From: Caulobacteraceae bacterium
GTDB taxonomy: Bacteria > Pseudomonadota > Alphaproteobacteria > Caulobacterales > Caulobacteraceae
Direction of reading: 5' to 3'
DNA: 64,000 nt
Assembly: GCA_947441065.1 (NCBI GenBank)
Contig: CANESI010000009.1
Coordinates: forward strand, 1 to 64,000
Below the pieces are notes generated by a model. The model had not been told where the DNA came from. It did not search any database and saw only the letters and a list, made by a program, of their open reading frames with translations. The position numbers and the translations under genes were made by a program. Below are positions 43,144 to 44,766 of the stretch, piece after piece. The number at the start of each line of letters is the position of its first letter. Positions within the stretch are counted from its first letter, which is position 1.

Positions 43144-44766
43144 CTAGGCAACCAAAGCGGCCCCTGAATCCCGCAAGATCGCTTCAATTTCGGTTCCGAT
43201 CCGATTGGGAATTTCCGCCGCTTGTGTAATTTGTACATATTTAAATGTGTTCAGGTCGAAAGGCACTTTGTCCGCGTCGCTCTTCGGCTCGAAAAGGAAG
43301 ATCAACTTGTTCTGTTCGTGGTGCTTCAGCGCGTAACCGGCTTCGATAAAGACGTTCGGGCGTTGGCCGGTTAGATCGCAGATGATGATATCCGACGATG
43401 CGATGGCTTCGTACATTTTCGCATGGATCGGGAAAGTTCCGCCTTCTTCCGTCCCCATATCCACAAGTTCCAATGGGATACCGTGCTTGGCAAGCAGGTT
43501 TGCCAGCGTTTGATTGAGTTGCTCAAGGCGAAGGTTCGCCTTGTTGAATGCGCCGTCCGCTGCATCTTGGGCAGGATACCAACGCGCCAGAAATACGCGC
43601 TTAGGTATTTTTGATTGAGCGGCCTTGAAAGTTTCAAGCAGTTGTTCGGCGGGGGAAAGACGGTTCAGCAGGCTCGTTATGCCCTGCCCGCCCAACCAGT
43701 TTCCAAGGCGGTCCAACACATCCACCGACGCACGTACTTTCTTTTCGTGAGTATCGCCGGATGCTTCCTTCCAAACGCGTGCCGCAAGTTCGAAGAAGCC
43801 GTAAGTGCGACAAAGGGACGGATGGTTCACCGTCAACCGGATCGCAATTTCAGACAGCCCGGCGAACAGATTTTCGGCAAATGTTGTGAGCGTCTGTCGA
43901 TCTTGCGCAATTGTCGCATCCATTGCGATCAAGTTGCGCGCTGATTCCCAAAGCGCGGTCAAAGGTTGATCGCCGAACTTCTCCCTTGTCGGCGCTGCCA
44001 TACCATTCAGCCTAGCCGAAAGGAGCCGGGTAAGGTGCAGATCGGGACTATAGGCAAACTCTTGGTCCGGCTGCATCGCGTGCGCCGGGTTTTGTCCAAG
44101 AAGGAGTTGCAGCCCGTGTTCGGACTCCAAGGGAAGCGCGGTACTGTTGATCGTATGGAAGATCAGAGATTCGGCGAAATCGTCCGCGTCGTCGGCGGGT
44201 GCTCCAAGCAGGATCATGCAAAACGGGGCAAGGTACTTGTTCGGCGTGTTTGGATCGTCCGTCAGTTGTTCGGCCAAATGCAAACGGTGATTGCCATCGA
44301 TACGGCGAACCAGCTTGTCGTTCTTGATTGCCTCAAGGTGATTTCGTTCCATTCGAATGCGCTGAATGCGAAGCGTCGGACTGGAATGTTTGCGGTTGAT
44401 CTGGATTGGGCTTCCGGCCCGGCTTTGGACACCAAGGACGGTTTGGCCAAGGCCGCGATCATCGGGGTTAATCGTGCCTTGTGCCGTTACAAGATCGACC
44501 GGCGAACGCACTGACAAAATGACTTCGGGGATGAAGCGACTATCGCTTAGCTCTAGGTACTTTTTGATATCTTCGGCGTGTTTTTCGGATTCCGGCCTTT
44601 GATGCCCGACGACAGGAACGCCAGCGCCGCCATTTTCCATCTTGTAGGGCGTCGATACGGCGGCAAGGTCGCGAAGATCGGCGTAGCCGCGTACGATCCT
44701 GAAAATCCCAAGGACGCCTTCGGCATACAAGCCTTCGAAATCGATATATTTCCGTGCCCGCGCCAA
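43144..44766 (-). CDS. DGQHR/DndB-like domain fused to C-terminal NDT/TIR-like domain
   Basis: N-terminal GHQRPESEKHAEDIKKYLELSDSRFIPEVILSV and RRIDGNHRLHLAEQL (DGQHR/DndB-like); C-terminal MYEAIASSDIIICDLTGQRPNVFIEAGYALKHHEQNKLIFLFEP; TTG start 3 nt after upstream stop. Confidence 0.75.
   Translation of the reverse strand: MARARKYIDFEGLYAEGVLGIFRIVRGYADLRDLAAVSTPYKMENGGAGVPVVGHQRPESEKHAEDIKKYLELSDSRFIPEVILSVRSPVDLVTAQGTINPDDRGLGQTVLGVQSRAGSPIQINRKHSSPTLRIQRIRMERNHLEAIKNDKLVRRIDGNHRLHLAEQLTDDPNTPNKYLAPFCMILLGAPADDADDFAESLIFHTINSTALPLESEHGLQLLLGQNPAHAMQPDQEFAYSPDLHLTRLLSARLNGMAAPTREKFGDQPLTALWESARNLIAMDATIAQDRQTLTTFAENLFAGLSEIAIRLTVNHPSLCRTYGFFELAARVWKEASGDTHEKKVRASVDVLDRLGNWLGGQGITSLLNRLSPAEQLLETFKAAQSKIPKRVFLARWYPAQDAADGAFNKANLRLEQLNQTLANLLAKHGIPLELVDMGTEEGGTFPIHAKMYEAIASSDIIICDLTGQRPNVFIEAGYALKHHEQNKLIFLFEPKSDADKVPFDLNTFKYVQITQAAEIPNRIGTEIEAILRDSGAALVA

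Follow-up and report, generated by a model that had tools for sequence, protein, structure and literature searches.

The window, a stretch of 64,000 nucleotides from a Caulobacteraceae bacterium (contig CANESI010000009.1), contains an open reading frame at 43144-44766 that encodes a protein of 540 amino acids, here called DGNHR-NDT. A preliminary description had drawn attention to this frame and its motifs without giving a strand; frame and motifs were borne out, though on the minus strand, and the plus strand at these positions is interrupted by stops. The start codon, assigned from the open reading frame and homologue starts, is a TTG located 3 bp past the stop codon of a methylase gene, and the start residue is the same in close homologues. 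The quoted motifs, HQR (with QR at residues 56-57), RIDGNHRL (residues 155-162) and DLTGQRPNVFIEAG (residues 464-477), were all found in the protein.

The operon runs on the minus strand in the order HTH gene, fused methylase and half-specificity gene, DGNHR-NDT and frameshifted HNH gene. The HTH gene (47774-48025; HTH_3, E = 8e-11) is of the Cro/C1 type. The methylase gene (44770-47664) encodes 964 amino acids, of which residues 1-719 align to a free-standing methylase (M) at another locus (L014). This M part (45508-47664) comprises a PD-(D/E)XK domain (Pfam HSDR_N_2, 3e-21) and an HsdM-type N6-adenine methylase (N6_Mtase, 5e-34), and its PD-(D/E)XK motif, D67...E88xK90...Q103, lies at 47356-47466. 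A specificity (S) subunit is present as its C-terminal half only (44773-45402), fused in frame to M, with residues 755-964 aligning to residues 234-443 of the L014 S protein. The HNH gene (42128-43116) is frameshifted near 42733-42740, and an intact form of 329 amino acids was found in Asticcacaulis sp. YBE204 (L010, identical to L076). Its N-terminal part (42652-43116) is 52% identical to residues 3-122 of the intact protein and had no family match in the libraries searched, and the C-terminal part (42128-42757; HNH, E = 2e-6) is 56% identical to residues 124-317.

The operon lies in an 11.6-kb integrative element (41973-53610) in a tRNA-Arg(CCG) gene (41943-42019, plus strand). Repeat comparison revealed flanking repeats of 47 bp: the 3' end of the tRNA gene (41973-42019) forms one attachment site, and the second repeat (53564-53610, plus strand) is identical to it at 44 of 47 positions. 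A tyrosine integrase gene (52071-53477, minus strand) was assigned from its translation, replication-type genes with DUF3987 and Prim-Pol domains (48846-51246, minus strand) were assigned by family matches, and a DUF5681 gene is also carried. This content is satellite-like; no phage structural genes were recognised in 41973-53610, and no HsdR helicase-nuclease was found among the element's scanned genes.

The M-half-S fusion and the frameshifted HNH gene indicate that the window copy may be partly decayed. The same two features would be expected if the operon were a functionless remnant in this genome only, a reading that does not concern the family. We consider it quite unlikely, since the fusion of M and S is in frame and retains one recognition half, the DGNHR-NDT frame is intact with all invariant residues, and the frameshifted gene lies outside the conserved core, in a position where no nuclease family is frequent.

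A second NDT-like protein is encoded outside the integrative element at 37806-38741 (plus strand; phrog_16139, E = 3.5e-39). In the few short loci checked, this gene was not seen paired with a cytosine methylase elsewhere. In the window, it is followed after 87 bp by a cytosine methylase gene (38829-39794, plus strand), the product of which is closest to Druantia DruM2 (PADLOC, E = 9e-147).

Domains and invariant residues of DGNHR-NDT

The preliminary description had likened the N-terminus to DGQHR/DndB proteins. The N-terminal part (residues 1-383; 43618-44766) matched the DGQHR model TIGR03187 with E = 8e-8, with weak matches to DndB (E = 0.01) and DpdB. As the scores of this single sequence fall under the curated Pfam and NCBIfam cut-offs (32.4 versus 58.85 for TIGR03187; 15.4 versus 29.1 for PF14072), homologues were needed; 36 of 38 matched TIGR03187 (best, 6e-15), which supports the likeness, and the DndB and GmrSD_N models matched 13 and four, respectively. 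DGQHR domains have been given three motifs, QR, DGxHR and FxxxN (PMC4619093). In the window protein, these correspond to residues 56-57 (44596-44601), 157-161 (DGNHR; 44284-44298) and 203-207 (44146-44160). The AlphaFold model of the N-domain had a pLDDT of 85, and Foldseek with this domain separately, as had been proposed, returned ParB-N structures at ranks 2 and 4 as weak neighbours (E = 0.69 and 0.93; probability 0.23 and 0.14). A search of PDB sequences with the N-domain profile yielded nothing meaningful. Judging from motifs and family models, a ParB/Srx fold is predicted, and likely, for the N-domain.

The C-terminal part (residues 384-540; 43147-43617) had been described as NDT/TIR-like, and profile and structure searches agreed. 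It matched the PADLOC TIR-type effector model (E = 4e-10), and hmmsearch with the C-domain profile against PDB sequences retrieved NDT (8e-5), MilB (5e-4) and Rcl/DNPH1 (about 1e-3), within an overall range of E = 8e-5 to 3e-3. The conserved E-x-G of the profile aligns with that of NDT and DNPH1; its Glu, the putative catalytic nucleophile, is Glu475 (43342-43344), and the upstream Asp464 of the superfamily is also present and aligned. The AlphaFold model of this domain had a pLDDT of 93, and Foldseek matched it separately to the CMP N-glycosidase MilB (E = 1.3e-6, probability 1.00) as well as to NDT, DNPH1 and TIR proteins. By modelled fold, motif and family, the C-domain is a member of the NDT/nucleotide N-hydrolase superfamily, with a predicted glycosidase or transferase activity.

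N-glycosidic chemistry would also suit restriction by base excision, in which the NDT-type domain would strip bases from unmodified DNA instead of acting on free nucleotides. Base excision is occasionally a mode of restriction (PMC12707154), and NDT domains in Abi proteins have been predicted to act on DNA (PMC3710099). However, free nucleosides or nucleotides are the substrates of those matched NDT-superfamily enzymes for which structures have been solved, and we regard base excision as very improbable here.

Scanning 85,488 species genomes for two 8-residue patterns, one of them RIDGNHRL, revealed at least 133 relatives; 80 loci were retained. Judging by record titles, their hosts span many phyla and include Alpha-, Beta- and Gammaproteobacteria, Desulfobacterota, Acidobacteria, Gemmatimonadetes, Planctomycetes, Clostridia, Bacteroidetes and others, with isolates such as Desulfobulbus rhabdoformis, Anaerobacterium chartisolvens, Methylotenera versatilis and Pseudomonas stutzeri. 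Whole relatives carry both domains, and this recurrence of the layout across phyla rules out an orphan or chance fusion. In all 64 aligned full-length copies, Q56-R57, RIDGNHRL (155-162), F203, N207, W357, F392, N471 and E475 are invariant, and Asp464 is kept in 63. Conservation of the Glu of NVFIEAG among orthologues and detection of each domain by profile searches had been named as tests of the proposed fusion; this Glu is the invariant E475, and both domains were detected.

The Asn in place of the usual Gln, which the preliminary description had remarked on, proved to be a fixed signature of the family: DGNHR replaces DGQHR in 64/64 aligned copies, a count partly helped by the search pattern RIDGNHRL, which favours that pentapeptide. 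Profile searches were also run on about 1,000 genomes sampled from Pseudomonadota and from the classes around one Clostridia and one Bacteroidetes member, and they recovered no full-length member in which a different pentapeptide takes the place of DGNHR; a more distant DGQHR protein of 739 amino acids that turned up belongs to a different family. In these samples, DGNHR-NDT occurs in about 1% of genomes or less. A phage origin was rejected, as 50,697 phage records gave no match and IMG/VR contained one relative. Searches of PADLOC, Pfam, NCBIfam and PHROGs returned no model spanning full-length DGNHR-NDT, and no description of the fusion was found in open-access papers naming DGQHR, judged largely by titles. 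Both halves are known, and the fusion, the Asn-for-Gln signature and the linkage to restriction-modification genes appear to be undescribed.

Linkage of DGNHR-NDT to methylase and specificity genes

Linkage was counted in the 67 full-length loci whose upstream sequence was long enough, with genes required to be on the same strand. An N6-adenine methylase gene was present in 64 of these loci, a specificity gene in 61 and both in 59. The gene order M-S-DGNHR-NDT or M-S-HsdR-DGNHR-NDT is conserved, with the order M-DGNHR-S in some Bacteroidetes; Rhodobacteraceae HTCC2083 (L014) and Novosphingobium jiangmenense (L055) are examples with a complete M-S-DGNHR-NDT operon. An M, S or R gene adjoins DGNHR-NDT in 57 loci, and a 4-bp overlap between the S and DGNHR-NDT genes occurs in 26 of these. 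DGNHR-NDT also co-varies with its M and S partners. Pairwise distances of M and DGNHR-NDT correlate (Mantel r = 0.70, n = 58, p = 2e-4), which fits co-inheritance, although part of the correlation may reflect the shared ancestry of the hosts. When M was sought apart from DGNHR-NDT in 399 genomes of Pseudomonadota, it was found in no other genome at E<=1e-70. Because the DGNHR-NDT gene is nearly always part of an M-S or M-S-R operon, a restriction-modification complex is its natural partner, and the suggestion of a "self-contained" sensor-effector did not hold, whereas the two fused domains are real.

In the commonest form of the operon, M is 602-822 amino acids long with an N-terminal HSDR_N_2 domain, and D67, E88, C89, K90 and Q103 of its PD-(D/E)XK motif are identical in 60/60 long-M homologues. 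Seven Clostridia-type loci (L036, L037, L040, L046, L052, L075 and L087) carry HsdR, full-length or, as in L037, split, directly upstream of DGNHR-NDT. The order M-S-HsdR-DGNHR-NDT is visible in L040, L046 and L052. Five of the seven loci also have a linked M gene, and in these M is short (526-539 amino acids); the one Clostridia-type HsdR tested matched PADLOC REase_I with E = 0. Judging from motif and family evidence, a nuclease is already present in M or as HsdR, so DGNHR-NDT would be an add-on to restriction-modification. Genes downstream of DGNHR-NDT vary and include Mrr, GmrSD, McrBC and others, with no frequent nuclease family.

These data bear on whether DGNHR-NDT could itself carry out primary, modification-gated restriction, with the DGNHR domain discriminating target methylation, the NDT domain as the main output and the nuclease domain of M not cleaving; this would parallel the sensing of phosphorothioate by SspE and DndI. 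The HsdR motor is seldom linked (PF04851 was matched by 3/107 neighbours on the downstream side and by 2/92 on the upstream side), DGNHR-NDT occupies the usual place of hsdR, and other M-S modules too have non-HsdR genes there. Against this stand the invariant nuclease motif of M and the presence of HsdR in the seven loci, which indicate that DGNHR-NDT adds to R rather than replacing it, and we judge primary restriction to be rather unlikely. The idea that DGNHR-NDT replaces HsdR was likewise weakened, as a cluster of neighbours of 1007-1067 amino acids proved to be HsdR and M elsewhere has the invariant PD-(D/E)XK motif.

M-S modules with other defence-type genes, namely an OLD/PtuA/GajA-like ATPase, a PglW-like kinase and DUF262 proteins, were observed on plasmids (L136, L144 and L145). 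The nearest plasmid M (Flammeovirga, 43% identical) lies in an HTH-M-S operon, and the next gene encodes an OLD/PtuA/GajA-like ATPase with a TOPRIM domain. After a more distant M (Hymenobacter) comes a gene for a PglW/PD-T4-6-like kinase; a Klebsiella M-S module is followed by genes for an unnamed protein and DUF262 proteins, and a Skermanella M-S module by no related gene. This pattern suggests that M-S may hold an exchangeable effector slot; it is put forward as a suggestion because these are single cases in which, except for Flammeovirga, identity to M is weak.

Operon structure also bears on the DNA-binding regulator that the preliminary description had seen in the N-terminal half, which is one possible way to read a DGQHR domain. 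The DGQHR protein studied in most detail, DndB, represses transcription of the dnd genes (PMC4507180), and DGNHR-NDT might similarly be an autoregulator that binds the operon promoter through its DGNHR domain, with the NDT domain as a ligand-sensing, non-catalytic appendage. However, the catalytic-type Glu and Asp are kept here across phyla, which would not be required of a simple ligand sensor, the window operon and the Flammeovirga M-S operon already contain an HTH regulator, and the DGNHR-NDT gene is last or nearly last in the operon, not first. Autoregulation is improbable on these grounds.

Proposed role and relation to known systems

The related DGQQR domains of DndI, SspE and GmrSD are NTPase switches, shown or predicted, beside a fused effector (PMC11662687, PMC4619093). 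In SspE and DndI, the DGQQR-type domain reads DNA modification and NTP hydrolysis controls the fused nuclease; in DndI, it senses modification and gates the nuclease via ATP hydrolysis (PMC11662687). By analogy, an NTPase switch would fit the DGNHR-NDT fusion better than a DNA-binding regulator.

We propose that DGNHR-NDT is an accessory sensor-effector of restriction-modification operons, in which a DGNHR switch gates NDT-type cleavage of NAD+ or (deoxy)nucleotides and thereby halts the infected cell, and we give this proposal an even chance of being correct. The DGNHR domain would act as a ParB/Srx-type, nucleotide-driven switch that senses the state of DNA or of the M-S(-R) complex produced from the same message, the candidate trigger being that restriction is engaged or is blocked by a phage. 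The triggered switch would free the C-terminal NDT-superfamily domain, the Glu475/Asp464 site of which would cut a free nucleotide at its N-glycosidic bond, NAD+ or a (deoxy)nucleotide being the likeliest substrate, and nucleotide loss would stop the infected cell. We infer NTPase switching, trigger, substrate and abortive infection together as the working parts of this model.

A guard or second-line role is favoured because a nuclease is present anyway. PrrC guards the type IC system EcoprrI (PMC12707154), and the Retron-Eco1 effector, which is NDT-like, is described as NAD+-hydrolysing (PMC12887533; ref 23 therein). The defence-type genes held in the same slot by other plasmid M-S modules and the location on an integrative element were also counted in favour of a sensor-effector. 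Given its recurrence beside restriction-modification genes in many unrelated bacteria, DGNHR-NDT looks like an undescribed phage-defence effector.

More broadly, these operons may represent a widespread, undescribed class of restriction-modification in which sequence-specific adenine methylation controls both a nuclease and a fused NTPase-switch/nucleotide-hydrolase. NAD+ or nucleotide depletion would then follow when restriction fails or is engaged, and M-S would be a platform that exchanges effectors (NDT, OLD-like nuclease, protein kinase). We advance this generalisation tentatively, as somewhat short of an even chance. If true, one conserved operon in many phyla would unite two defence strategies so far regarded as distinct: restriction based on self/non-self methylation, and abortive infection through the destruction of nucleotides or NAD+. 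DGQHR domains, the role of which outside Dnd is unsettled, would gain a second testable setting, and type I-like M-S modules would be predicted to act as platforms on which effectors can be exchanged. Ready-made targets for mutants are offered by the invariant residues of DGNHR-NDT.

DGNHR-NDT shares with the DndB/DpdB/DGQHR proteins (TIGR03187, PF14072) the QR pair, the DGxHR pentapeptide and FxxxN, and differs from them in the Asn for Gln in every member, in the fused NDT domain and in its link to adenine methylation rather than to phosphorothioation or 7-deazaguanine genes. Neither DndC/DndD/DndE nor SspB-D was found among the window neighbours or the frequent neighbours of the homologues (M, S and varied nucleases). 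SspE, DndI and GmrSD (DGQQR plus nuclease) similarly combine an N-terminal DGQxR switch with a C-terminal effector, and SspE and DndI are likewise tied to a DNA-modification module; in contrast, the effector of DGNHR-NDT has an NDT-like N-glycosidase fold in place of a nuclease, and the modification enzyme beside it is a type I-like N6-adenine methylase. The C-domain shares its fold and catalytic-type Glu and Asp with the NDT/MilB/DNPH1 superfamily, and the likeness of the Retron-Eco1 effector to the NDT fold is taken from the literature alone; unlike in these proteins, the domain here is the C-terminal part of a protein linked to restriction-modification. PrrC, too, is an effector-type gene inside a restriction-modification operon, but it encodes an anticodon nuclease, and DGNHR-NDT contains no anticodon-nuclease domain. 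M and S resemble MAD2 and MAD5 of MADS (mad2/mad5), respectively; however, M scores 293 bits against the MAD2 equivalog NF047738, the cut-off of which is 720, and no other mad genes were found among the other proteins of the window operon.

An unusual arrangement was observed on the Leisingera plasmid pBMJM1_1 (L009:8963-11206), where a gene annotated as an N-6 DNA methylase starts as the first half of M and continues, without a break in the frame, as the second part of DGNHR-NDT; it is probably the product of a deletion.
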